Assembly: GCA_031082285.1 (NCBI GenBank)
Contig: JAVHLK010000034.1
Coordinates: 1-44,880, forward strand
Length of the DNA: 44,880 nucleotides
Direction: 5' to 3'
Origin: Desulfomonilaceae bacterium
GTDB taxonomy: Bacteria; Desulfobacterota; Desulfomonilia; Desulfomonilales; Desulfomonilaceae
Part shown: positions 14,230 to 36,342 of the stretch, one piece after another
Numbering within the stretch: position 1 is the first letter of the stretch
Layout of the letters: each line of letters opens with the position of its first letter
Notes under the pieces: generated by a model
What the model was told of the DNA's origin: nothing
The model's input: the letters and a program-made list of their open reading frames with translations, nothing else
The model's database searches: none
Made by a program: the position numbers and the translations under genes

Positions 14230-15030
14230 TCAAGGCAACAGGGTAAGACGGCAACCAAGAAAGAGCAGGAGGACTCCAACGGCTGTTCGATCCGCGCGAC
14301 GGAATTTCAGTGGTTTGAACTGAGTTCGCGTGCCGCCGGGCTGGAAACCCCGGGCGGTCATTGCCAGCGCAAGAAGATCGGCCCTTCTCAGAGCCCCCGA
14401 CAGTGCGGGAGAGAGCAGGGCGACCAGATTCCCGGCTCGGGTCGAGAGCCGTCCCTTCCGGAAATCCACACCGCGGGATTTTTGAGCCTCGATGGTCGCG
14501 TTTAACTCTTGTTGGAGAAGAGGCACGAATCTCATGGCAAGAAGCACGACCATGCCCAGATCGTCCACCGGTACTCGGAGTCTCTTCAGAGGTTTGGAAA
14601 GGAGTTCCACTCCTCTGCTCATTTCGGTTGGCGATGTGGTGAATGTCAATACCAAAGCCGCGACAATTGCCTGCATGATCTGGAAGGTAAAAATGAGTCC
14701 AATTTCCAGCCCTTCCCACGTGATCGGCAATTCCCATTGTCCCATGAAGACGGGTCTTCCTTGAGTTCGGAAGAACACATTCAGTCCCAGGACTGCCGCC
14801 AACATTACCGCGAAACGGTAGGTCGAACGGAGCCAGATCTTCCAACCCGCCCGGCTGAGCACGGCAAGAATGAAAATCGGCACCGCGGTCGCGAGCACTC
14901 CTGCCGGGACCGGCGACCAGAAAATCGAGGCGAGCATTGCGATGAGTCCGAGCAGTTTCGTACGCGGATCCAGACCGTGTAAGACGGAATCAAGAGGAAG
15001 ATACCCGCCGATGGTGATGTCGCTCTTCAT
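14230..15030 (-). CDS. Energy-coupling factor transporter transmembrane subunit (EcfT/CbiQ family)
   Basis: The 266-residue membrane protein is the T component of an ECF importer, which links ATPase subunits to a substrate-binding S component for uptake of vitamins or of nickel or cobalt. Several membrane helices lie in residues 25-135 and one at the C-terminus. The two cytosolic coupling motifs are present: AQKSRGVDF (about 182-190) and ALAMTARGF (about 221-229). No EcfA ATPase or S component is in the window, so it is an orphan here. ATG 15030 is chosen because the longer frame is Arg-rich and unlike the family. The Shine-Dalgarno is weak. A TATAAT promoter lies about 195 bases upstream. 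Confidence 0.88.
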   Translation of the reverse strand: MKSDITIGGYLPLDSVLHGLDPRTKLLGLIAMLASIFWSPVPAGVLATAVPIFILAVLSRAGWKIWLRSTYRFAVMLAAVLGLNVFFRTQGRPVFMGQWELPITWEGLEIGLIFTFQIMQAIVAALVLTFTTSPTEMSRGVELLSKPLKRLRVPVDDLGMVVLLAMRFVPLLQQELNATIEAQKSRGVDFRKGRLSTRAGNLVALLSPALSGALRRADLLALAMTARGFQPGGTRTQFKPLKFRRADRTAVGVLLLFLGCRLTLLP

Positions 15031-15230
15031 GGTACTGGATTGAGAACCCCTTCGTTCATATGATCGGGTACCGTTACACCCACCTGTTGTCGGCGACGCG
15101 ACTGACTCGCGCGGCCTGTGCCGAGGTTTGCCGAAGTCCGCACGAACGCCGGATCCGGACGCCGTAAGGGTTCGCGGCACGCGGGTGCAGGGATGTCAAG
15201 CCCATGTCACGTGTTTGAAAATGCACATGC

Positions 15231-15260
15231 ATTATACCTCGCCGGCGCGTTTTGTGGTAA
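15231..15260 (-). promoter_or_regulatory. Candidate promoter for EcfT gene
   Basis: The minus strand reads TTACCA (15260-15255), 18 bases, then a perfect TATAAT (15236-15231). It would give a long leader of about 195 nt. Confidence 0.45.
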
Positions 15261-15478
15261 TGTGTCATACGATATCGGTACGGTGTGTTCGCCTTCCGGC
15301 GCGCCGTACGATCAATGGAGCCGCGCAGAACCGCGAGCGGGGACGCCGGCGCAGCGAAGGGGCTCGTGCCTCCGTGTCCTGAAGCGTGAAATGTACTCGG
15401 AAGTCGCGCTTCCTGTGGCGGTTTGCCGCATGGGAAGGACTTACACCGAGACCAATTGGGTTTGCCCGAGGTTCGCCC

Positions 15479-15497
15479 ATCCCGCGGTTCGCGGGAT
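15479..15497. repeat. Perfect 8-bp stem-loop
   Basis: ATCCCGCG (15479-15486) pairs with CGCGGGAT (15490-15497) around a GTT loop. There is no T-run. Similar CCCGCG-CGCGGG hairpins occur at 12180-12197 and 41389-41404. Confidence 0.6.
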
Positions 15498-15558
15498 CCA
15501 TCCACTCTCGCTGTGAACGTTCATCCCGGTTCATAGCCTTCAAGCCGCGAGTATCGAC

Positions 15559-15984
15559 ATGCCGAACGACCAGTTCAAGGACCTGTCATTGTTGGGCGCC
15601 GGCCCGACGTCTTTACCGCAGAAGCCTGAGGAAGCGGTTCTTGAGAGTTTCCCAAACAGATATCCGAAGCGGGATTATACCATCGAATTCACCTGCCCTG
15701 AATTCACGAGCCTGTGTCCCCTCACCAAGCAGCCTGATTTCGCGAGAATCATTATCACCTATATTCCGGACCGCAAATGCCTGGAATCCAAATCTCTGAA
15801 GTTCTACCTGGGATCGTTCAGAAACGTCGGGATGTTTCACGAGGAGATCACCAATCGTATCCTTGACGATCTGGTTGCAGCCTGCGAGCCCCGATGGGCA
15901 CGGGTCAGGGGACTCATGAACCCGCGGGGAGGGATTTCCATCGAGGTAACGGCCGAGTACGGCAAGCCGGGGTACCGAGGATAG
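15559..15984 (+). CDS. queF: NADPH-dependent 7-cyano-7-deazaguanine reductase (type I QueF)
   Basis: The 141-residue length matches the unimodular type I QueF, a cytosolic enzyme that reduces preQ0 to preQ1 in queuosine biosynthesis. The catalytic Cys is Cys53 in TSLCPLTKQPDFA, with Asp60 as its partner. The QueF NADPH-binding motif ESKSLKFYLGSFRN starts at Glu76, and FHEE (93-96) supplies the substrate-binding Glu. The rest of the pathway is absent from the window. No preQ1 riboswitch was recognisable upstream. The gene is convergent with the polymerase gene at 16025. Confidence 0.96.
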   Translation: MPNDQFKDLSLLGAGPTSLPQKPEEAVLESFPNRYPKRDYTIEFTCPEFTSLCPLTKQPDFARIIITYIPDRKCLESKSLKFYLGSFRNVGMFHEEITNRILDDLVAACEPRWARVRGLMNPRGGISIEVTAEYGKPGYRG

Positions 15985-17609: not shown

Positions 17610-17737
17610 AAATTGCTATGAGCATGAAAGATTGATTATCGTTGCGAGACGCCGGCGCGGTGTTCAGACTCGTCGGTTCCGCCGTCAAAGACAGTCGCGC
17701 GATATCTCGTATTTTTGCTGACTGAGGGAGGAGCGTG

Positions 17738-19300
17738 GTGCATCGTCCGGGAACGGTCAAGAGCATTCCCAAGCGAGAGTCGGAACCCCGAACACTTGCA
17801 GGGTCCGATAAGGGAAGGATGGCCCTTGGTACGTTTGCCAGGGTGTGGCGGCGACGGAATTGGTTGCTGGCGGCACTGGACGTGGCTGCGTGCCTCGTGT
17901 CGTTCCTGGGATGCTACTACCTTCGGTTTCACGTTGATTACGTTACGGCCTTAATTCCGCTCACTTTTCCATCGACCCCCGCGGTGGACCCGTACATCAA
18001 GGCAACGATACTCACAACCGCACTGTGGATTCTCCTGATGAAACGGGAGCGTATGTACAGGGACGAACTGCACTTTGCTACGTCTCTGGGTTTCCGCGTG
18101 AGGATCGTTCTGATCACGGGCTTCTATTCGATGGTTTTCTTGATGGTCATATCTTTCATGTTCCGATACTTGCTTCTGTCACGGATAGTGTACGTAGGGG
18201 GCTTTGTCTCGGCGTGCACGCTGATGATTCTCGTGCGCATTTGCTTTCGGTTCGTCGACCGCCGTCTCGACGATCAATGCGTGACTATGTACCGCGTTTT
18301 GCTGATGGGCTGGAATCGCAACGTCGAGGCTCTGCTGGACCGGCTTCAAAAGCACAATAGGTGTACGCACGTCCTCGGGAGGCTGGGCTGGGGTCTTAAG
18401 TCCGACAGGATTATCGGGAACGGAGACCAGATACCGTATTTGGGTACGGCGAAAGACCTTGAGGACATCTACCGAGAGGCACCGTTCGATCAGCTCATCG
18501 TCGTCCCTGAAGGACGCGGGACGGACCCGCAAGTCGCAGCTCAGCGCGAGACTATGGTGCGAGTACTGAATTTCTGTGAAGAACACGGTATCTCGTTCTA
18601 CATGGTTCCCGACTTTGTGGACGTCATCGTCAGTCGCAGGGAACTCGGCAGCTTTTCGGGCATCCCCCTGATGCGCCTTATGGACGCGTCGCTTCATCCG
18701 GTGTACGCCTGGGTGAAGCGTGCCATGGACGTTGTCGTCGCGTCCGTCGTCCTTGTTGCAGGATCGCCGTTGTGGTTGGCAATTGCCGTGCTCATTAAAG
18801 TCACGAGCAAGGGGCCGGTGTTCTATGTTCAGAAACGAGCGGGAATGTACGGTAACCAGTTCGACATGTACAAATTCCGGTCCATGGTTGAAGACGCGGA
18901 AGAGAAACTTAAGGGCATGATTGATTTCAAAAAGTTGAAAGAGCCGGTCTTCAAGTTCAGAAACGATCCCCGGGTTACCGGTTTCGGAAGGATACTGCGT
19001 CGTTTCGGCCTGGACGAGATTCCTCAATTGTTCAATGTGCTTCTGGGACAGATGAGTATCGTGGGGCCCCGACCCGAACAAGTTGAACTGGTGAAACGGT
19101 ACGATCCGTGGCAGAGGCGCAGACTGAAGGCCCGGCCTGGAATTACCGGCTATCAGCAGGTGGTGTGCAGGGGAGACCTCTCCCTGGCCAAGAGGATCGA
19201 GTACGACCTGTACTACCTCAAGCACCAGAGTTTTTTTCTCGATGTCCTCATAATGCTGAGAACCGTCCTGGTGGTGATACGCGGCGACGGCATGAAGTGA
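17738..19300 (+). CDS. Polyprenyl-phosphate sugar-phosphate transferase (exopolysaccharide initiating enzyme 1)
   Basis: The 520-residue protein has four N-terminal membrane helices (about residues 40-165), a Rossmann-like CoA-binding-type domain (about 185-310) and the bacterial sugar transferase domain, starting with a fifth helix (VKRAMDVVVASVVLV). Catalytic-domain motifs are YKFRSM, DPRVTGFGRILRRFGLDEIPQLFNVL, SIVGPRPEQ and ARPGITGYQQV. Such enzymes move a hexose-1-phosphate from a nucleotide sugar to undecaprenyl phosphate to start repeat-unit synthesis. GGGAGGAG lies before two adjacent GTG codons (17735, 17738); the second has the better spacing. A second enzyme of this kind is at 27559. 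Confidence 0.92.
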   Translation: MHRPGTVKSIPKRESEPRTLAGSDKGRMALGTFARVWRRRNWLLAALDVAACLVSFLGCYYLRFHVDYVTALIPLTFPSTPAVDPYIKATILTTALWILLMKRERMYRDELHFATSLGFRVRIVLITGFYSMVFLMVISFMFRYLLLSRIVYVGGFVSACTLMILVRICFRFVDRRLDDQCVTMYRVLLMGWNRNVEALLDRLQKHNRCTHVLGRLGWGLKSDRIIGNGDQIPYLGTAKDLEDIYREAPFDQLIVVPEGRGTDPQVAAQRETMVRVLNFCEEHGISFYMVPDFVDVIVSRRELGSFSGIPLMRLMDASLHPVYAWVKRAMDVVVASVVLVAGSPLWLAIAVLIKVTSKGPVFYVQKRAGMYGNQFDMYKFRSMVEDAEEKLKGMIDFKKLKEPVFKFRNDPRVTGFGRILRRFGLDEIPQLFNVLLGQMSIVGPRPEQVELVKRYDPWQRRRLKARPGITGYQQVVCRGDLSLAKRIEYDLYYLKHQSFFLDVLIMLRTVLVVIRGDGMK

Positions 19301-19326
19301 ACCGAACGATCGGGCTGTTCCGTGCG

Positions 19327-19833
19327 TCACTCGGTGGGTTGTTGCGGGCATTGGGGTTCAATAGTGAACTTCCGCGAAGGATCCACGAGAACGTTGTCCT
19401 CCATGAAACTTCTGCCGATAAGCATCTTGTAGTTGAACCGACTTCGATCCACCAGATTCACCTCCACCTCGCGCGAAATGGTCCCCATGCAAATCGTGAG
19501 CCTCACGACCGGTCGCTTGCTCTTTTTCCCTTCGGATCTCTTGATCGTTACCAGACGGACCAGTCTTCGCTCGAGCGAAGCCGTCGTTCCGTCGGCGTTG
19601 ACCAGGTCAAAGCGGACCCACCTCACTCCCCTGCGCCTGAAGCGATGAATGGACTGAGCGTTCACTGAGGAATGGTCCGCACCCGTGTCCATTTTTGCAC
19701 TGAAGATGAGCCCCCCCGGATCGACTCGAACGTCTTCGATGAGACCCACGACGGTCGTCTTCTCGGATGCGGACGTCTGCACGGTCAGCGCCATGGGGGT
19801 TACTATTAGTAACGCGAACAGGAACACTTTCAT
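19327..19833 (-). CDS. Exported retropepsin-like protease 1 (pfam05618, 'ATP-dependent zinc protease' family)
   Basis: The 168-residue protein has a signal peptide (residues 1-23, ending TSASE) and a single small aspartic-protease-type domain: KMDTGADHSSVNA carries the catalytic-type Asp, and DRSRFNYKMLIGRSFM is the conserved second block. One Asp per chain implies a dimer, as in retropepsins; the 'ATP-dependent zinc protease' label in databases is historical. ATG 19833 is chosen for the GGAG seven bases upstream. It is the second gene of a tandem pair, 42 bases after the paralogue, and divergent from the 7TM/ATP-grasp operon. Substrate unknown. Confidence 0.88.
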   Translation of the reverse strand: MKVFLFALLIVTPMALTVQTSASEKTTVVGLIEDVRVDPGGLIFSAKMDTGADHSSVNAQSIHRFRRRGVRWVRFDLVNADGTTASLERRLVRLVTIKRSEGKKSKRPVVRLTICMGTISREVEVNLVDRSRFNYKMLIGRSFMEDNVLVDPSRKFTIEPQCPQQPTE

Positions 19834-19875
19834 ACGGTCTCCAGGAACCATTGTCCATGACCGGAAGGGGGCCTC

Positions 19876-20358
19876 CTACCGATCCGGCTTGCGCGTGTAC
19901 CGCGCCGAGGGGTTACAAATCACCCGATCCAGCATAAAGCTCCGTCCTATGAGCAGCGGGTATCTGAGGCGCGAACGGTCCGTCAGATTCACCACGGTGT
20001 TTCTGCACTCGTTTCCCAGACAAATCTCCATGATCACCAATGGGCGTTCCTGATACTCCCCGCTGAGCTGGGGCACCGTCTCTATCCCAACCTGTTCCCG
20101 TTCGATCTCGACCGTGTTGCCGTCTCGGCCGTCCACCTCGAACCGGATGAACCTCCTCCCGTCTCGCTTGACGAAGTCGATGTTGCGTGCGTCAATGGAG
20201 GTGTTGCCCGCACCAGTGTCCACCTTTGCTTGAAGTATGAGGTTTTCGGGCTTAATCGACGCTTCTTCGACCCAGCCGACCACCATCTTGTCTGCTGCTG
20301 ATTGACTTCCCCACAATAGGGCTGCGGCGATCGCCGCACACATTAACCTGCTTTTCAA
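19876..20358 (-). CDS. Exported retropepsin-like protease 2 (pfam05618 family)
   Basis: This 160-residue paralogue of the protease at 19327 has a signal peptide ending about SAAD and the motifs KVDTGAGNTSIDA and DRSRLRYPLLIGRSFM. The middle differs clearly from its neighbour, with an extra Cys pair (ICLGNEC). The start is TTG 20358, directly behind GAGGAGGAGA; upstream ATG-initiated readings lack a ribosome site. A TTGACA promoter lies about 40 bases further upstream, so the pair is probably one operon with this gene first. Divergence between the copies suggests two substrates or a heterodimer. Confidence 0.87.
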   Translation of the reverse strand: MKSRLMCAAIAAALLWGSQSAADKMVVGWVEEASIKPENLILQAKVDTGAGNTSIDARNIDFVKRDGRRFIRFEVDGRDGNTVEIEREQVGIETVPQLSGEYQERPLVIMEICLGNECRNTVVNLTDRSRLRYPLLIGRSFMLDRVICNPSARYTRKPDR

Positions 20359-20945
20359 ATCTCCTCCTCGGGCCGGATGTGTCACCCCGGGCCGTACTAT
20401 TAATAGTTCTCTCGGCATTCCATTGTCAAGTCGCCGCTACGCATCTGAAGTGAGGTTGCCGTGGGTCGGCGAGAACCGCGCGCCTCGGCCGTATTCATTC
20501 ATATTCGGGAGGACGGTGCGCGGGATGACGGTCAGGGACGCCCGTGCCACGAGGTCTCTCCCTGCGCCGCCGGCAGGCTCCGCCGGACCTGAGTCGAGCC
20601 GTTTTCGCCGACGGCCCCGCTTGACTTTCCGGTCTCTGCAGCGTAAGGAATGCCTCATTGGTGTAACGGGATGTGTGCAGTCAGATACGGGGAAGTCCGC
20701 CGACGAGGCGGTGAGATGAGGCGCGGGAGCCCGTTGACGGGGAAAATGGAACAATTATGGATCTTTCCGGTTGAAGCGGTTGTCAACAGCACAAATGGGA
20801 CGCGAACCGATCGAGGAATATGGCGTGCGCAATCCTGTTTCCCCGGCGAAGATGAGTGGAAGATCGGTTCCTCCCGTTGACGCGTTGTTTGGAGGTACGA
20901 TTGTGATGTGTTACCGAGCCTTTCGGCAGGAGAGGCGGGTGTACG
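20359..20945. other. Large divergent regulatory region of the protease and 7TM/ATP-grasp genes
   Basis: The 587 bases contain the minus-strand protease promoter (20400-20429). On the plus strand TTGACG (20734-20739), 16 bases, TATGGA is a poor candidate for the 7TM operon. A remnant of the GAGATTGCCGTGGG element is at about 20451-20467. A 44-codon frame from ATG 20748 has a badly spaced G-run and is not called. Confidence 0.5.
20400..20429 (-). promoter_or_regulatory. Promoter of the tandem protease genes
   Basis: The minus strand reads TTGACA (20429-20424), 18 bases, TATTAA (20405-20400). The leader to TTG 20358 would be about 35 bases. Confidence 0.55.
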
Positions 20946-22484
20946 TTGAATAGAGTGCATTTGTACGTCATGGCTGCGGTCCTGACCATTGCGGGTGGCG
21001 GCTTCTTTCTTTACAAGGCTTACATTGTCGGATTTCCCCTCAGTTACAAGACCGAGACGACGGCATGGAAGGTCGAAGCTCGTGTGACGTTTACCGCAGC
21101 CGGCAAACCGGTCAAGGTATCTCTGCTGATCCCGGACCACCAGGTCAAGGGTTTTGCGATTCTTAATGAAACCTTTATCTCAAGCGGGTTCGGAATCGTG
21201 ACCACGATGGAAAAGGACAATCGGCAAGCCACCTGGTCCATTCGGCGGGCAGCGGGAAAGCAGACGCTGTATTATCAGTCCACAATCGAATTGGCGGCAC
21301 GTTCGGTCACGACGGGCGATTCCACCCCTCCGAAACCAAAGGACACTACACTGGAAGGCACCTCTCTTCAGGCTGCCAAGTCCCTCATGAAGGAAGTGAA
21401 GAAACGATCCGCAGATATCCCCAGCATGGTCGCCGAACTCATCACGCAACTGAATCGCGATGACCCGGACGACAACGTCAAATTGCTCATCGGTCCGAAA
21501 CCCAACCGGAAGAAGCGAATGATCGCGGCATCCCGAGTCCTCAGGTTTTCGGGCGTTCCGGCCAGAGTCGTCAGCGGAATTCGATTGCGCGGAACGACGC
21601 CGGATTTTTACAAGAATATCGATCTTATTCATTGGTTGGAGGTGTACGACGGGAAGGCTTGGGCCTCTTTTTCCCCCGCCACCGGGAAATCTCCGGTGCC
21701 GGAGCACTGGTTTCGTTGGTGCGTGGGGGCAGGTCATCCGGCAAACATTGAAGGAGGGGACAACTTACGGGTGACATTCTCGGCACGTCCACTGGTGGAA
21801 AAGGCATTGAGTTCCGCGGTGAACCGGGCAGAGGTGTCGCATCCCTCGCTCCTCAAGTTTTCGCTGTTCAGTCTTCCCGTGAGTACCCAAGCCGTATACC
21901 GGGTACTGCTTCTGGTACCCGTGGGGGCCTTTCTGTTGGTCTTGCTTCGGAACGTTGTGGGCATCAAGACCTTCGGGACTTTCATGCCCGTGCTCATCGC
22001 TCTGTCGTTTCGAGAGACCGGTCTGATTAGAGGCATCGTGATTTTCGTCGTCCTGGTCGCTCTGGGTCTCGGCGTCAGGTTTTGGCTGGAACAACTGAAG
22101 TTGCTCGTGGTTCCCCGCCTGGCAGCGGTACTGATTGTCGTGGTGGGGCTCATGACAATGCTCAGCGTGATGACGAAGGCACTGGGGGGGCATACCGGTC
22201 TGTCGGTGGCTCTTTTCCCCATGGTGATCCTGACCATGACCATTGAGAGGATGTCCATAGTAGTGGAAGAGCGAGGCCTTTGGGAAGCACTCACGTCGGG
22301 AATGGGAAGCATCATATGTGCGTCGCTGGCCTATATGGTCATGAACATCAAGGAGGTGGAACACCTCGTGTTCGTCTTTCCCGAATTGTTGCTTGTCTTG
22401 CTGGCCGCTACTCTCATGGTTGGCCGCTACACAGGGTACCGCCTCATGGACCTTTACCGGTTCAAAGCGTTGGCCGGGAGCTAG
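20946..22484 (+). CDS. Inactive transglutaminase domain fused to seven membrane helices
   Basis: The 512-residue protein has an N-terminal helix (about 6-26), an extracytoplasmic transglutaminase-like domain (about 40-310) and a C-terminal seven-helix region (about 316-500), the architecture of the 7TM_transglut family. The transglutaminase core is recognisable (ASRVLRFSGVPARVVSG, then IHWLEVYDGKAWASFSP), but the catalytic Cys position holds no Cys and the final Asp is replaced, hence 'inactive'. It may bind rather than cleave peptides. Conserved membrane motifs are GIKTFGTFMPVLIALSFRE and ERMSIVVEERG. The start is TTG 20946 after AGGAGAGGCGGG. The ligase gene follows 4 bases after the stop, so the two are coupled. 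Confidence 0.9.
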   Translation: MNRVHLYVMAAVLTIAGGGFFLYKAYIVGFPLSYKTETTAWKVEARVTFTAAGKPVKVSLLIPDHQVKGFAILNETFISSGFGIVTTMEKDNRQATWSIRRAAGKQTLYYQSTIELAARSVTTGDSTPPKPKDTTLEGTSLQAAKSLMKEVKKRSADIPSMVAELITQLNRDDPDDNVKLLIGPKPNRKKRMIAASRVLRFSGVPARVVSGIRLRGTTPDFYKNIDLIHWLEVYDGKAWASFSPATGKSPVPEHWFRWCVGAGHPANIEGGDNLRVTFSARPLVEKALSSAVNRAEVSHPSLLKFSLFSLPVSTQAVYRVLLLVPVGAFLLVLLRNVVGIKTFGTFMPVLIALSFRETGLIRGIVIFVVLVALGLGVRFWLEQLKLLVVPRLAAVLIVVVGLMTMLSVMTKALGGHTGLSVALFPMVILTMTIERMSIVVEERGLWEALTSGMGSIICASLAYMVMNIKEVEHLVFVFPELLLVLLAATLMVGRYTGYRLMDLYRFKALAGS

Positions 22485-22488
22485 ATCG

Positions 22489-23424
22489 ATGTCTTGGATA
22501 GTAAGTGATCTCAAGAGAAAAGGGATACTTGCCATCAATAAGCGGAACGCGGATTACACTCTGAAGTACAATCCTCGCCGCCTCTATCCTCTCGTGGATG
22601 ACAAGTTGCGGACCAAACAGCTTGCACTGGATAACGGCATCGGAGTCCCGCCCCTGTATGGAGTCGTCGAAGTTGAGGGGCAGGTCCGACGTGTCCTTGA
22701 GAACGTACGAGACAAGACCGATTTCGTGATCAAGCCGGCCCACGGATCGGGCGGCGAGGGGATTCTCGTGATCGGCGGACGAACAAACGGCAAGTTTCGC
22801 AAGGCTTCAGGAACCATTATCACCAGCGAGGAGATCCGGCACCACGTTTACAATACCCTCAGCGGTCTTTACAGCCTGGGAGGCCAACCGGACAAGGCAA
22901 TCATCGAGTATCGCGTACAGTTCGATCCCACCTTTGAACACATCAGCTACCTCGGGGTTCCCGATATTCGCATTATCGTATTTCTCGGAGTTCCGGTGAT
23001 GTCGATGGTTCGCCTCCCAACGCGCATGTCCGATGGGAAGGCCAATCTTCATCAAGGAGCCGTAGGAGCGGGAATCAACATTCCCACCGGTACGACCATT
23101 TCCGCGGTTTGGGAAAACGATATTGTCGAGGAGCATCCCGACACGGGGTATCCCGTCGTTGGGGTGACCATACCCAACTGGAAGGATCTGCTCGAAATGG
23201 CGGCCAAATGCCATGATATGACCGGGCTTGGGTACCAGGGTGTTGATATTGTCTTGGACAGGGACATGGGCCCGCTCGTTCTCGAATTGAATGCTCGACC
23301 GGGGTTGAATATCCAAATCGCCAACAAAGCCGGGCTATTGAAACGGCTTGATGCCGTGGAGAAACACCGGGACTCTCTCAAGAGTTTGTCCGACCGGATT
23401 TCGTTCGCACTCGACAACTTCTGA
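22489..23424 (+). CDS. RimK-like alpha-L-glutamate ligase-type ATP-grasp protein
   Basis: The 311-residue cytosolic protein is an ATP-grasp ligase related to RimK: FVIKPAHGSGGEGI (Lys82) is the ATP-binding loop, IIEYRVQF and PDIRIIVF form the central strands, and LVLELNARPGLNIQIA (Glu266, Asn268) binds magnesium. The family joins an amino acid, often glutamate, to a carboxylate of a peptide or protein. ATG 22489 follows the 7TM gene by 4 bases with GGGAG in the overlap; the longer frame starting inside the 7TM gene is rejected. The acceptor is unknown; the context of exported proteases suggests a cell-envelope peptide. Confidence 0.92.
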   Translation: MSWIVSDLKRKGILAINKRNADYTLKYNPRRLYPLVDDKLRTKQLALDNGIGVPPLYGVVEVEGQVRRVLENVRDKTDFVIKPAHGSGGEGILVIGGRTNGKFRKASGTIITSEEIRHHVYNTLSGLYSLGGQPDKAIIEYRVQFDPTFEHISYLGVPDIRIIVFLGVPVMSMVRLPTRMSDGKANLHQGAVGAGINIPTGTTISAVWENDIVEEHPDTGYPVVGVTIPNWKDLLEMAAKCHDMTGLGYQGVDIVLDRDMGPLVLELNARPGLNIQIANKAGLLKRLDAVEKHRDSLKSLSDRISFALDNF

Positions 23425-23564: not shown

Positions 23565-23909
23565 TCAGTAGGCGAACCTCCCATCCTTCACGATAAAGGC
23601 ACGCACGGGCCTGGCACGAATCGTTCGCGGCTTCGGTTTAAGCTTTGCCGTGGTGTACCCCCTGAGTGTGAGGTGAACCTCCATGCCTACCGTACACCAA
23701 TTGCACGGTGCCATGGGTTCCAGGACGAAGTCGCCGCTCAAGGCAGAGACGTGAATGTAGTCTTCGCCCATTCCCGTGATGCGTGCATCTTCCACCTTCG
23801 CCCTCTGAGCATGCGAATCGGTGACAAGCCCCACCATGACACACGTCAGCAGAGCCGTCACGAGACACTTCAGAGGACTCGCCCGGCGTAACTCATTTGT
23901 TCGGAACAT
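23565..23909 (-). CDS. Small exported protein with CxxC motif
   Basis: The 114-residue product has a signal peptide (about residues 1-34, ending SHA) and a mature part of strand pattern with one CNWC motif, in APCNWCTVGMEVHLTL, and a basic Lys/Arg/Pro-rich stretch before the end. It does not look like thioredoxin. ATG 23909 overlaps the 3' end of the co-polymerase gene by 17 bases in another frame, so translation is probably coupled. It may serve the same polysaccharide machinery, but the family is unknown. Confidence 0.72.
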   Translation of the reverse strand: MFRTNELRRASPLKCLVTALLTCVMVGLVTDSHAQRAKVEDARITGMGEDYIHVSALSGDFVLEPMAPCNWCTVGMEVHLTLRGYTTAKLKPKPRTIRARPVRAFIVKDGRFAY

Positions 23910-25371
23910 CTTTACCTATCCGCCCCACGGTTGACAGCACTTTGTACCCCGTCTCAGCTTCCACTTCCTGCGGCTCATAGAACGTGTGGTCAAAGAAGTT
24001 GGCGAGAAGAATCAACCCCAGCCCAAAGGGAAAAGCCACAACAAATGCGCCGAACACAAGCAAGAGTTTCTTCGGAAAAACCGGAGCCGTCGGCGTAAAG
24101 GGTTTGCTCACCACTCGTACCGAAACCAGCTTGTTGCCCCCTTTGAGGTTCTCGAGTCGGGCTTCCTCCTCTTTTGACACGTACTGGAGGTACCGCTCTT
24201 TTGCAATGGCTACGGCAAGATTGAGCGACCGCACCTCCTCGCTCTTCCCCTCAAGGTCCTGCAGCAGTGCCTGTTGCTGCTTGAGGCTCTCCTCAAGACT
24301 TACCTGCTTGACCTTGAGGATGGCAATCTCGTTTTCTACCGCGTCCTGGAGCTGTCTGCGCAACGCTTCTTCCATCTCCAGTGCTGCACGGGCCTCTCGG
24401 CTGTCCGCGGAGTATGCCTCGGCTACCTTCATCGAACGTTGTTTGGCTCTCAGCAATTGAGTCACAATCACATTGATCACCGTGTTCTCCGTGCCCCGCT
24501 GCATGGAGGGAGAAAGTTGACCGGTCGGCAGCGTACCTTCTTTGAATGCGGCCAGCATTTCGCTGTACTGTCTCAAGTTCGACTGTAATTCCACGAGCGA
24601 ATCCTGAATCTGCTTGATCAGCGCGATCAACTCACTCTTTTGACGCTCGGCAAAGGAGATCCCCCATTTTCTCTTGAATTCCGTAAGCTTCTCTTCCGCT
24701 TCGTCGAGCTTTTTCTTGTAGATATCGCCTTGACCGGAAAAAAAACCTTGCGCGTCAGGAAGCGCGTAAACCTCGAGGTGATACGGTATGTAGAGATCGA
24801 GAAGGGTTCTGAGAATCTCGCTGGTCATTACCGGATCGGAATACCGGAATGAAATATCGAGGATCTTAGACTTGGGTGCAGGCGTCACCTTGAAGTCTTC
24901 CAAGAGGGCTTTGGCTATTGATCTCTCTTTGACGACCTCAGAATCCTTCTCACTTGCCGCAGCCGTTGACCCGCCGACCCACGATTGAACGGTTTTCGAG
25001 AGGTCCTCCATCCATACGGAGAGGGCGCCTCTGGTAGGCTTATCGAAGTAGTTCAGCCCCAACTTCTTTACCGTCCTGGTCCAGAGTTCGAGGCTCCGAA
25101 GGAGCTCGCTCTCGCTGTTGAGGTCGGTTTCGTCCACGTTGAGATTGAGATAGGCCGATGAGCCGGTCTCCATCGGGCCTTGGAGCAGCATGGCCGTCTC
25201 TTTCTTCGCCGTGACGATCACCTTTGCCGTGGACTCGTACAGAGGGGTTACCAGGTAGCAGATGAGAAGGGTGAACAGCGGCAATGCCACCAAGACGAAC
25301 TTCAGCACAAAGATCCGGCGATAGATGATGTTAAGCGTGTCTCTGAGAGACATTTTCCGATCATCTTTCAT
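23893..25371 (-). CDS. Polysaccharide co-polymerase / chain-length determinant (Wzz-like)
   Basis: The 492-residue protein has the Wzz topology: a membrane helix at about 23-43, a long periplasmic region with coiled coils (about 215-410), a Pro-rich motif (SKPFTPTAPVFPKK) and a second helix at about 436-458. The 33-residue cytosolic tail carries no Walker motifs, so there is no fused tyrosine kinase, and no separate kinase lies in the window. Such proteins set polymer length together with Wzy. AGGTGA precedes ATG 25371. It probably acts with one of the two polymerase-like proteins in this locus. Confidence 0.9.
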   Translation of the reverse strand: MKDDRKMSLRDTLNIIYRRIFVLKFVLVALPLFTLLICYLVTPLYESTAKVIVTAKKETAMLLQGPMETGSSAYLNLNVDETDLNSESELLRSLELWTRTVKKLGLNYFDKPTRGALSVWMEDLSKTVQSWVGGSTAAASEKDSEVVKERSIAKALLEDFKVTPAPKSKILDISFRYSDPVMTSEILRTLLDLYIPYHLEVYALPDAQGFFSGQGDIYKKKLDEAEEKLTEFKRKWGISFAERQKSELIALIKQIQDSLVELQSNLRQYSEMLAAFKEGTLPTGQLSPSMQRGTENTVINVIVTQLLRAKQRSMKVAEAYSADSREARAALEMEEALRRQLQDAVENEIAILKVKQVSLEESLKQQQALLQDLEGKSEEVRSLNLAVAIAKERYLQYVSKEEEARLENLKGGNKLVSVRVVSKPFTPTAPVFPKKLLLVFGAFVVAFPFGLGLILLANFFDHTFYEPQEVEAETGYKVLSTVGRIGKDVPNK

Positions 25372-27558: not shown

Positions 27559-28956
27559 TCAATATGCTCCCTTTCCCGATATGACCGTTCCCAAGGTCTT
27601 CAGCAGAATCTTCAGATCCAGTATCAACGAATAATTTCTTACGTAATAGATATCAAAGTGAGTATTCAGATTCATGGGCGCGTCGCTTCGTCCCGAGACC
27701 TGCCACCAGCCCGTGAGGCCGGGCGGTACCGAGAGCCGCTCCCATTGCCAGTGATCGTACGTCTTGGTGATAAAAGGTTGTTCCGGTCGCGGTCCTACCA
27801 ACGACATCTCGCCCTTCAGGATGTTGACCAGCTGGGGCAATTCATCCAGGGAGGTTCGTCGAAGCCATTTGCCCAAACGGGTGACCCTTGGATCGTCCTT
27901 GACCTTGTATACCGTGCCGCCGTCCACTTCTTGTTCCAACGCCGCACCGAGGAGGTCTTGCGCATCCTGAACCATCGTGCGGAACTTGTACATGCGGAAG
28001 ATGGTGCCGTTTTCTCCTATCCTTTCCGTGACGAATATGCCGGGGCCCCGGGAGTCAAGCCGCACGGCTATCCAGATGAGAACCATGAGCGGGGAAAGGA
28101 GGACGATACCGATGCTCGACAGAACGATGTCCATGACGCGTTTCGTAACCCGCCTGTGGCCCTGAATCATGGGTTCGCGGATGCCGATAACGATCAGGTC
28201 GCCGAATCGCTCCGCGGACGCGTTCACAAAGCTCATTTGGAGGAAGTCCGGCACCAGGTATACCCTGACCGGCAGACTGTCCAGCTGATAGATGATTGAC
28301 TCGAGTTCATGAGCCTGATCTCGGCTGAGCGCCACCACCACCGTTTCGACTCGGTTCTCTCTGACGGTTCGGGCCATCTCATCAGTGCCCCCCAGGAAGG
28401 GGGCGGGAAGAGCTGCGTCGGAGGGTCGGCCGTCTACGAATCCAATGACTTCCATGAACCGCCCGTGGTTGTCGTTGATGGTCTCCGCAATACTCAAGGC
28501 CACGCGCGACACTCCGACGATGAGGACGCGGTTTCGCCTGTTTCCGTTCACCATGTGCGAGAGATACATCGTGAGCCCGTATCGAACGAGCAAGAGAGCC
28601 GCGTAGGTCGCCGCGGAGTGGTAGATGACGAGCATTCGTGATGTTTCTCTGAAGGAGAAATAGAGCACGCCGGCCAGGGTGAGAAACGCCAGACCCTGAG
28701 CCAGGGTGACCGAACCTATCTGATTGGAGAAACTCGGGATCTTATGGGCACTGTACACACCCGTGATGGCGAATGTCACGTGCCAGATCAACGCGACCAC
28801 GAGGTATACCGCGGGACTGGGCAGCACATACCCCACGTCAAGGAATTTTCCCGGAAGATACGGCCTCAATTTCACCATGAGCGCGAGTACGACGACCGGC
28901 AAGAGGGCGTCCATCAACATCAGGAATGCTTTGTATCCACGGTACTGACTGAACAA
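27559..28956 (-). CDS. Polyprenyl-phosphate sugar-phosphate transferase (initiating enzyme 2)
   Basis: The 465-residue protein has four to five membrane helices, a Rossmann-like middle domain (RVLIVGVSRVALSIAETI, about 141-160) and the bacterial sugar-transferase domain (TKRVMDIVLSSIGIVLL; YKFRTM; DPRVTRLGKWLRRTSLDELPQL; SLVGPRPEQ; VPPGLTGWWQVSGRS). It would load the first sugar of a repeat unit onto undecaprenyl phosphate. It differs clearly from the enzyme at 17738, so it is not a recent copy. TTG 28956 is the longest start without a good Shine-Dalgarno; an ATG eleven or thirteen codons in is an alternative. Confidence 0.9.
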   Translation of the reverse strand: MFSQYRGYKAFLMLMDALLPVVVLALMVKLRPYLPGKFLDVGYVLPSPAVYLVVALIWHVTFAITGVYSAHKIPSFSNQIGSVTLAQGLAFLTLAGVLYFSFRETSRMLVIYHSAATYAALLLVRYGLTMYLSHMVNGNRRNRVLIVGVSRVALSIAETINDNHGRFMEVIGFVDGRPSDAALPAPFLGGTDEMARTVRENRVETVVVALSRDQAHELESIIYQLDSLPVRVYLVPDFLQMSFVNASAERFGDLIVIGIREPMIQGHRRVTKRVMDIVLSSIGIVLLSPLMVLIWIAVRLDSRGPGIFVTERIGENGTIFRMYKFRTMVQDAQDLLGAALEQEVDGGTVYKVKDDPRVTRLGKWLRRTSLDELPQLVNILKGEMSLVGPRPEQPFITKTYDHWQWERLSVPPGLTGWWQVSGRSDAPMNLNTHFDIYYVRNYSLILDLKILLKTLGTVISGKGAY

Positions 28957-34038: not shown

Positions 34039-35196
34039 ATGCCGAAGGTACTGCTTGCATTCGGAACCAGGCCCGAAACCATCAAGTTGGCTCCGGTCTA
34101 TGGGGAGCTTCGAGCCCGTGCGGACGGAATCCGGGTGCTCTGCTGCGTAACCGGGCAGCACCGGGACATCCTGGATCCGTTTCTCCGGTTCTTTGACATA
34201 CGCCCCGACTATGATCTGAACATTCTTAAGGAGAACCAGACCCTCTCCTATGTGGCGGCACGAGTGCTGCAAGGAATGACCGACATTCTTCTCAGAGAAC
34301 AACCGCACCTACTGATCGTCCAAGGGGACACCACCTCGGCATTCGCGGCGGCCCTCGCCGCGTTCCATCTCAAGATCCCGATCGCCCACGTCGAGGCGGG
34401 ACTTCGCTCATACGACAGATTTCAACCGTTTCCCGAAGAGGTCAACAGGACATTCATATCCCACATGGCCGATCTCAATTTCTGTCCCACCGATCGGGCC
34501 GCGGAGAATCTCCGTCGCGAACGCATTGATGAATCGTCCATTCGAGTCACCGGAAATACCGTTATTGATGCGTTGTTCGGTACTCTTCGAAGACTCGAGG
34601 AAACCCCCGCGGCATGCAACGAGCCGGCCGCACACGGTCTTCCCCAAGGGAGAATGATCCTGGTCACGGGCCATCGGCGAGAGAATTTTGACGGCGGCCT
34701 AGCCGACCTGTCGCGTTCGTTGGTGGATCTCACGGACCGTTTCCCGGACGTGACCGTGGTGTATTCTCTCCATCCGAATCCCCACGTGCGCAGACAAGTG
34801 GAGGAGATCCTGCGAAATCGAGACCGAATCAGAATCATTGCGCCTCCGGACTATTTCGGATTCGTTGCCTTGATGCGCGACGCGTACTTCATCATCACGG
34901 ATTCCGGCGGTATCCAGGAGGAAGCTCCTTCGCTCCGAAAGCCCGTGCTCGTGGCAAGAAACGTGACCGAGAGACCGGAAGCGGTTGAGGCGGGGGCGGC
35001 CGTCCTCGTGGGAACCGACCGCGGGAAGATCTTCAAAGAGGCCGCAAAACTGCTTGACGATCCGGACCATTATGCATCCATGCAGGTGGACGAGAGCCCT
35101 TTCGGCGACGGCCGGGCGGCAGTCCGCATCGTTGATGAAATAGAAGCCTTTCTTGGCCGCGCAGCGGCAGGTTCACTTCGGAACCAAGAATCATAA
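34039..35196 (+). CDS. wecB: UDP-N-acetylglucosamine 2-epimerase (non-hydrolysing)
   Basis: The 385-residue protein has the family landmarks: FGTRPETIKLAP at the N-terminus, TGQH, AHVEAGLRSYD, TGHRREN, TDSGGIQEE and NVTERPE. It interconverts UDP-GlcNAc and UDP-ManNAc in the cytosol and so feeds ManNAc-type sugars into polysaccharide synthesis. GAGAGGGA precedes ATG 34039. It has its own promoter and is followed 36 bases later by a second family member. The symbol is assigned by family; substrate could be a related UDP-sugar. Confidence 0.93.
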   Translation: MPKVLLAFGTRPETIKLAPVYGELRARADGIRVLCCVTGQHRDILDPFLRFFDIRPDYDLNILKENQTLSYVAARVLQGMTDILLREQPHLLIVQGDTTSAFAAALAAFHLKIPIAHVEAGLRSYDRFQPFPEEVNRTFISHMADLNFCPTDRAAENLRRERIDESSIRVTGNTVIDALFGTLRRLEETPAACNEPAAHGLPQGRMILVTGHRRENFDGGLADLSRSLVDLTDRFPDVTVVYSLHPNPHVRRQVEEILRNRDRIRIIAPPDYFGFVALMRDAYFIITDSGGIQEEAPSLRKPVLVARNVTERPEAVEAGAAVLVGTDRGKIFKEAAKLLDDPDHYASMQVDESPFGDGRAAVRIVDEIEAFLGRAAAGSLRNQES

Positions 35197-35232: not shown

Positions 35233-36342
35233 ATGGCAAGTACTGTCGTCAGTGTGGTGGGAGCACGACCCAACTTCATGAAGGTCGCTCCGTTGGATCG
35301 GGAGTTCTCCCGCTTTCCGGAAATCCGTCATCTCATCGTTCACACCGGCCAGCACTACAACCCGGAAATGAGCGCCGTGTTCTTCGAGCAATTGGGCCTG
35401 CCCGACCCGAACTACCACCTGGGGGTCGGGTCCGGACGCCATGGTGAAATGACCGGGAAGATCATGATCGAATTCGAGAAAGTCTGTGTGGATATCCAAC
35501 CGGACATGGTGGTCGTCGTGGGGGACGTGAATTCCACCATAGCCGCGGCGCTGGTCGCCAGGAAATTGCTCATACCCGTGGCTCACGTAGAGGCCGGTCT
35601 GAGGTCTTTTGACGAAACCATGCCCGAAGAACTGAACCGACGATTGACCGACTGTCTGTCAAATCTGCTGTTCGTGTCGGAACCCGCGGGGGTGACCAAC
35701 CTGAGGAATGAAGGTATTGCTCCGGACCGAGTCCACCTCGTGGGAGACATCATGCTCGAAACCCTACGGACCTTCCTGCCTGCCATTGAGTCCCTGGAGA
35801 AATGGGAATCCTTCGGGCTCTCAAAAGGCTCGTACTCCCTGGTCACCATACACCGGCCCTCGAACGTGGACACACCCCAAGCGCTGACCGAGACCATCGA
35901 CATTCTCTCGCTCCTGCCCAAACCCGTTCTCTTTCCCGTTCATCCCAGAACACAAGCAAGGATGAACGAATGGGGCCTCATGGACAAGATCCTCGCCAAT
36001 GGAACGTGTCGGTTGGTTTCGCCGCAGCCCTACGTGGATTTCCTGTCGCTCCTCCAAGGATCCAGGCTGATCTTCTCGGACTCGGGATCGGTTCAGTCGG
36101 AAGCGAGTTTCTTCGACGTGCCTTGTCTTATATGCAGAGAGAACACCGAGCGACCTATCTATCTCGAGGAGGGCACCTCGGAATTGGTGGGACGGAATTC
36201 GGAAAAGGTGCGGGAGGAACTGGGCAAGTTAGCGGAAGGGAGCTACAAGAAGTCCACCCCAACTATCCGCGAGCTGGGCCGGGACGTCGCACGGAAGACG
36301 GTGAACCGCATCCGGGATGCCCTGGCCGGGGGACCTGTCTGA
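35233..36342 (+). CDS. Second UDP-GlcNAc 2-epimerase family protein, divergent
   Basis: The 369-residue protein shares the fold and landmarks with its neighbour (VVGARPNFMKVAP, HTGQHYN, AHVEAGLRSFD, SDSGSVQSEAS, ENTERP) but has IHRPSN in place of HRREN, and QSEAS in place of QEEAP. These are the two commonest subtypes of the family, so the copies are old paralogues and may use different UDP-sugars. GGGGAGGAAAG lies before ATG 35233. The close spacing to wecB suggests one transcript. There is no UDP-ManNAc dehydrogenase in the window. Confidence 0.9.
   Translation: MASTVVSVVGARPNFMKVAPLDREFSRFPEIRHLIVHTGQHYNPEMSAVFFEQLGLPDPNYHLGVGSGRHGEMTGKIMIEFEKVCVDIQPDMVVVVGDVNSTIAAALVARKLLIPVAHVEAGLRSFDETMPEELNRRLTDCLSNLLFVSEPAGVTNLRNEGIAPDRVHLVGDIMLETLRTFLPAIESLEKWESFGLSKGSYSLVTIHRPSNVDTPQALTETIDILSLLPKPVLFPVHPRTQARMNEWGLMDKILANGTCRLVSPQPYVDFLSLLQGSRLIFSDSGSVQSEASFFDVPCLICRENTERPIYLEEGTSELVGRNSEKVREELGKLAEGSYKKSTPTIRELGRDVARKTVNRIRDALAGGPV

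Follow-up and report, generated by a model that had tools for sequence, protein, structure and literature searches.

The block at positions 19327-23424 of a 44,880-nucleotide stretch of contig JAVHLK010000034.1 (assembly GCA_031082285.1; "the window" denotes this whole stretch) is a rearranged copy of the Rlo (RloA-RloB-RloC) envelope system in an uncultured Desulfomonile-like bacterium of the family Desulfomonilaceae. Four genes were found where an initial annotation of the sequence had placed them, two of PF05618, one of PF14400 with PF14402 and one of PF14397/TIGR02291, all scoring far above chance. The module is read here, with fair but not high confidence, as a system that makes, exports and trims poly-alpha-glutamate (poly-Glu) in the envelope. 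RloC, in the cytosol, would use ATP to build alpha-linked glutamate chains, either free or carrier-bound, RloB would take or display these chains across the inner membrane via its conserved membrane domain, and the two RloA proteases, predicted to be exported, would cut them in the periplasm, setting chain length or turnover. We infer that RloC synthesizes poly-Glu and that RloB exports it, and likewise what the second protease does, while the families, the intact catalytic residues, the gene order, the coupling and the orthology of the protease pair were observed directly.

The biochemical anchor is the Rlo system of Pseudomonas aeruginosa, published in mBio in 2025, in which PA1768-PA1767-PA1766 correspond to rloA-rloB-rloC (PMC12239564). 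In that species the proteases RloA1-3, retropepsin-like and exported, cleave poly-Glu of at least 8 residues; E8 and E10 are cleaved and mutants in basic residues fail (PMC12239564). Loss of the three proteases results in sensitivity to low osmolarity, poor biofilm, shape defects and pale smooth colonies, and the triple mutant is rescued by deletion of rloB or rloC (PMC12239564). It is thus established in that organism that RloA cleaves poly-Glu and that rloB and rloC are epistatic to rloA, in agreement with the earlier proposal for the window that the exported proteases cut the product of the ligase. A RloB homologue of Shewanella is further reported to influence vesicle production (PMC12096838).

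RloC scored above the TIGR02291 cut-off, and its ATP-grasp residues (K39, K82, the glycine loop at 86-91, E140, D257, E266, N268 and R270) were invariant in 42 RloC sequences. The residues for ATP and Mg are accordingly intact and the gene encodes a RimK-type ATP-grasp ligase as first annotated; loss of ATP-binding residues, which had been named as an observation that would speak against the module, does not apply. A profile search of solved structures returned amino-acid ligases only, and the profile matches comprised RimK, other alpha-L-glutamate ligases, cyanophycin synthase and the tubulin polyglutamylase TTLL7. The folds nearest to the AlphaFold2 model (pLDDT 93.7) were those of ArgX, RimK, LysX and cyanophycin synthetase (Z 16.8-18.6), with ArgX at Z 18.6 over 219 aligned residues at 3.0 Å, RimK at Z 17.8 and D-Ala-D-Ala ligases at roughly 14-16, differences in Z of less than 1 counting as ties.

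In the AlphaFold2 model of RloB (pLDDT 86.6) one N-terminal transmembrane helix is followed by a beta-rich and helical, periplasmic transglutaminase-like domain at about residues 37-286 and, from about residue 300, by a multi-helix membrane part. The middle domain matched the solved structure 3isr with Z 15.6 over 221 residues at 3.7 Å and TgpA with Z 7.4. The column of the catalytic cysteine was absent in 64 of 64 RloB sequences and the histidine and aspartate positions were variable; model, fold match and alignment together uphold the annotation of a multi-helix membrane protein whose transglutaminase-like domain is inactive and faces the periplasm. The peptide-binding role initially suggested for this domain is conjectural; conservation in RloB peaks in the membrane domain and not in the transglutaminase-like domain. 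Q315, R335, R378, R391, E434 and R435, all in the membrane part, were invariant in the same 64 sequences. This suggests that the function of RloB resides in the membrane part, whose conserved arginines would be well matched to an anionic chain.

Both proteases carry, as annotated, a single DTGA motif each, located after a hydrophobic N-terminus that resembles a signal peptide as judged by eye. Members of PF05618 are retropepsin-like aspartic proteases despite the Pfam name 'zinc protease' (PMC12239564), and the solved relative 9g58 was recovered with RloA1 at E 1e-26. In P. aeruginosa RloA numbering, which was set by locating the residues that PMC12239564 names on the 9g58 sequence and assumes 9g58 to be P. 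aeruginosa RloA, both window copies keep the catalytic aspartate of the DTG (D48) and the core basic residues K46, R114 and R137. RloA1 in addition keeps R92 and K97, while in RloA2 the flap-side residues R92, K95, K97 and R99 are replaced by G, T, P and L; RloA2-type copies are without the flap-side basic residues. The catalytic aspartate and core basic residues were retained in every aligned RloA copy. As mutants of R114 and R137 had the strongest effects in P. aeruginosa and failed to complement (PMC12239564), both window proteases are probably active.

In a tree whose bootstrap had not fully settled, RloA1 grouped with one copy from each of two relatives (support 97/91), whose second copies grouped with RloA2 (loci L036 and L037; support 100/99). 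In genomes G006 and G008, which belong to different genera, the two copies again stand in tandem with their order unchanged, at a long distance from rloBC, and the RloA2-RloA1 unit is therefore older than the window genome. By tree and gene order the pair is an orthologous unit across three Desulfomonilaceae genera and no recent local duplication. At L036 (8862-10530) and L037 (8484-10555) the unlinked pair is followed in both cases by a response-regulator gene, and LD-carboxypeptidase, GlmS and GlmM lie near the pair in L036. The initial annotation had called the doubled proteases unusual. Tandem PF05618 pairs are indeed uncommon (8 of the 37 PF05618-positive genomes among 395 genomes of the phylum, in families f1, f9, f10 and f43), yet they have a recurrent distribution that includes at least three families other than that of the window, and the pair seen here is of old descent. 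For 6 of the 8 (f9, f10 and f43) the pair sits just upstream of rloB; at loci L148-L153, which come from other phylum families, rloBC is preceded by a tandem RloA pair, and in f43 and f10 the distal copy belongs to a strongly diverged subfamily with its catalytic residues kept.

The two window proteases are thus not redundant copies by descent, RloA1 having the canonical basic flap side that RloA2 has lost. Given these unlike flap sides they probably differ in preference for substrate position or length, or act as partners. The conserved unlike pair provides a test case for sequential cutting, in which one protease starts and the other finishes, against a dimer of unlike subunits. The latter, a heterodimeric retropepsin-type protease of one canonical basic-flap subunit and one neutral or acidic-flap subunit, is a speculative and rather unlikely arrangement. 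If true, its tunnel would be asymmetric and would suit a substrate that has glutamate to one side of the scissile bond and a different group, such as a carrier, lipid or sugar, to the other; bacteria would then have a two-gene equivalent of the asymmetric pepsins.

Co-occurrence of the families was evaluated in the 395 phylum genomes. RloB was detected in 35 genomes and PF05618 in 37, and both in 32, where 3.3 were expected (hypergeometric P ~2e-38, a value that ignores the relatedness of the genomes). A wider set comprised the 80 best-scoring RloB loci from many phyla, with many Gammaproteobacteria and Legionella among them and 50 loci of at least 20 kb. RloC adjoined RloB in all 80, and RloA was within the locus in 62. 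The initial statement that these families recur together holds; the annotation had not recognized the set as the Rlo system published in 2025. No recurrent fourth partner besides rloA, rloB and rloC was seen across phyla among the loci examined; other neighbours that recurred did so through synteny within a single clade of Gammaproteobacteria or belonged to widespread families, for example ABC ATPases and sensor kinases. In the window's own genome no further PF05618 protein and no further RimK-domain match were detected, and RimK and RimB were not found. Rlo here would accordingly work without a cytoplasmic counterpart, and such a genome clarifies which ligase feeds the exported proteases of a system that has only recently entered the literature.

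Several points weigh against a make-export-trim system for poly-Glu. For 14 of the 18 searched genomes with RloA-less rloBC loci no PF05618 protein was found (loci L060, L061, L063-L069, L073, L078, L079, L097 and L107; the 18 include L051). These are mostly from a Gammaproteobacteria clade allied to Steroidobacter, some of the genomes may be incomplete, and no obvious substitute protease adjoins the protease-less rloBC; the trimming step is thus not obligatory everywhere. The RloB membrane domain, compared as part of the whole-protein model, gave no strong structural match, only weak and uninterpreted matches to AcrB-type helices (Z ~5), and RloB is accordingly a putative exporter. No measured activity or product of RloC from any organism was found in the literature. 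Lastly, ArgX/LysX and D-Ala-D-Ala ligases have the RloC fold, so the amino acid added could differ.

The alternative that survives best is that one particular protein or lipoprotein of the envelope is glutamylated by RloC at its C-terminus and freed of the glutamates by RloA, with RloB as scaffold or substrate presenter and no free polymer. RimK and RimB, which together make poly-alpha-glutamate of up to 28-36 units, act in this manner on the ribosomal protein S6, RpsF (PMC11957791), and the P. aeruginosa study found no genome-encoded substrate and named post-translational glutamylation as one of its two options (PMC12239564). The ligase is, however, predicted to be cytosolic and the proteases exported, meaning that modification of a target would have to precede its export and cleavage to follow it, and no conserved fourth gene that could encode a candidate substrate recurs beside rlo across phyla. 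We consider this explanation possible but doubtful.

A second alternative takes up the initial suggestion that the position of the genes, between a sugar-phosphate transferase and a Wzz-like gene, reflects a special link to surface polysaccharide, such that the module modifies or controls the surrounding glycan, for instance by glutamylating the glycan or the Wzz-like protein. The colony and biofilm phenotypes of the P. aeruginosa triple protease mutant (PMC12239564) are consistent with this, as are transposon insertions in PA1766-PA1769, the rlo operon with the gene next to it, that suppress the exopolysaccharide-overproducing colony form of fliC mutants (PMC7314104). The clean deletion in the latter study was however of PA1769 and not of rloABC, and PA1769 is not listed as lowering Psl. 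The survey of neighbourhoods, which had been proposed as the test of the suggestion, found glycan genes near rlo at no more than chance level. Homologues of ten glycan-locus proteins of the window, used as queries against the 80 RloB loci, gave one weak match, to a polymerase-like protein in L080; in a positive control the same queries recovered sugar-phosphate-transferase loci in 25 of 29 cases, and the four that escaped were partial matches (E 7e-9 to 3e-7). No sugar-phosphate transferase was present on the RloB contig in ten family relatives. None was located within 10 kb of RloB at the 33 places in 31 further RloB-positive genomes of the phylum, some contigs of which are short, where 0.36 was expected by chance. 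A single one, in G087, lay about 20 kb from rloB, against 0.72 expected within 20 kb.

The window is one case in about 120 loci, and adjacency to glycan genes is in the range of coincidence. A conserved association of rlo with glycan genes was not supported. In addition, the rlo genes are convergent with the glycan genes on both sides with no evident common transcript, and the orthologous protease pair is located elsewhere in two relatives. Placement inside the glycan locus is most likely incidental and the polysaccharide explanation improbable, which cautions against inferring a glycan role from a single locus. A physiological link of rlo to exopolysaccharide output, as indicated by the P. 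aeruginosa screens, is possible. About equally improbable is a ligase that works with an amino acid other than glutamate or links peptides of the peptidoglycan type, with a cell-wall peptide as substrate: D-Ala-D-Ala ligases have the RloC fold, P. aeruginosa rlo mutants show cell-shape and cell-wall-antibiotic phenotypes (PMC12239564) and the protease pair of G006 is near LD-carboxypeptidase, GlmS and GlmM, but the sequence-profile relatives of RloC are glutamate and poly-amino-acid ligases, and RloA prefers glutamate runs and keeps here its core basic residues for an acidic substrate.

The layout of the locus is given in Table 1. The RloA pair is divergent from rloB-rloC, as first annotated. 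A longer rloC open reading frame (ORF) from TTG 22393 overlaps rloB; the start was corrected to ATG 22489, most likely the true one, four bases past the rloB stop at 22484, which results in the ligase length listed. For rloA1 a downstream methionine (MKVFLFALL...) may be the true start. The speculative 15-codon ORF upstream of rloB is preceded by GGAGG at 20891-20895 and overlaps the rloB TTG start by eight bases, and the two together are a possible leader for translational coupling. The 528-base divergent spacer had no Rfam match and a fold stability no better than that of shuffled sequences (z -0.47), and the count of promoters and terminators at the locus was not above that of shuffles.

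Table 1. Features of the Rlo block and its immediate neighbours (coordinates of the window).
Feature	Position	Strand	Evidence or remark
Sugar-phosphate transferase	17735-19300	+	Left neighbour of the rlo block
rloA1-type, putatively exported retropepsin-like aspartic protease, 174 amino acids	19327-19851	-	PF05618 E 3.3e-36
rloA2-type, putatively exported retropepsin-like aspartic protease, 180 amino acids, flap-side basic residues lost	19876-20418	-	PF05618 E 5.3e-29
Candidate 15-codon leader ORF, speculative	20906-20953	+	Direct sequence reading
rloB, TTG start	20946-22484	+	PF14400 E 3e-46, PF14402 E 7e-96
rloC, RimK/ArgX-type ATP-grasp ligase, 311 amino acids	22489-23424	+	PF14397 E 6e-95, TIGR02291 468.8 bits (cut-off 314.2)
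Wzz-like gene	23893-25371		Right of the rlo block

On the left the end of the protease pair faces the end of the sugar-phosphate transferase across a gap of 26 bases (19301-19326), and on the right rloC is convergent with a minus-strand ORF (23565-23909) of 114 amino acids that has a hydrophobic N-terminus and no Pfam or NCBIfam match. From these gene directions, as distinct from RNA data, the rlo genes read as a closed divergent block. Neither a GC shift nor flanking repeats that would indicate recent insertion of the block were seen. The glycan region holds two initiating sugar-phosphate transferases (the left neighbour and 27559-28956) and two adjacent UDP-GlcNAc 2-epimerase homologues (34039-35196 and 35233-36342), and may on account of these duplications be two loci side by side. 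Genes for a CbiQ-type transport protein and QueF are located to its left, at 14230-15984.

Compared with known systems, the block is most like P. aeruginosa Rlo, with which it shares the three families, aspartic proteases that are here putatively exported, a ligase of the ATP-grasp type, the presence of more than one RloA paralogue per genome and a membrane protein whose transglutaminase-like domain is catalytically dead. It differs in the tandem protease pair divergent from rloB-rloC, one copy being without flap-side basic residues, in the glycan-locus setting and in that RimK and RimB were not found in the genome. The window rlo genes do not form one co-directional operon, and relatives vary too, the arrangement being divergent in L021 and the protease pair unlinked in L036; a single co-directional rloA-rloB-rloC operon is the usual arrangement and not a defining one. 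The window proteins also scored under the very high NCBIfam cut-offs for RloA (122.8 against 280 and 102 against 210; E 1e-35 to 2e-32 for RloA1 with the RloA1/2/3 models) and for RloB (inact_TG_RloB, 428.5 against 900 bits). These models are of the kinds 'exception' and 'equivalog' with cut-offs set for near relatives, and the window genes are accordingly filed as Rlo in the broad sense and not as P. aeruginosa equivalogs.

RimK-RimB likewise pairs an ATP-grasp ligase with a poly-Glu-cleaving, retropepsin-like protease of PF05618, but is cytosolic and without a membrane protein, whereas the window has rloB; the two window proteases scored 72 and 46 with the RimB model, below its cut-off of 200. 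The LysW ligases ArgX and LysX, of which ArgX is the closest solved fold of the window RloC, differ in being biosynthetic carrier-protein ligases that have neither a protease nor a membrane protein as partner. TgpA of P. aeruginosa and 3isr have a fold like the periplasmic domain of RloB, which differs from them in having no catalytic cysteine.

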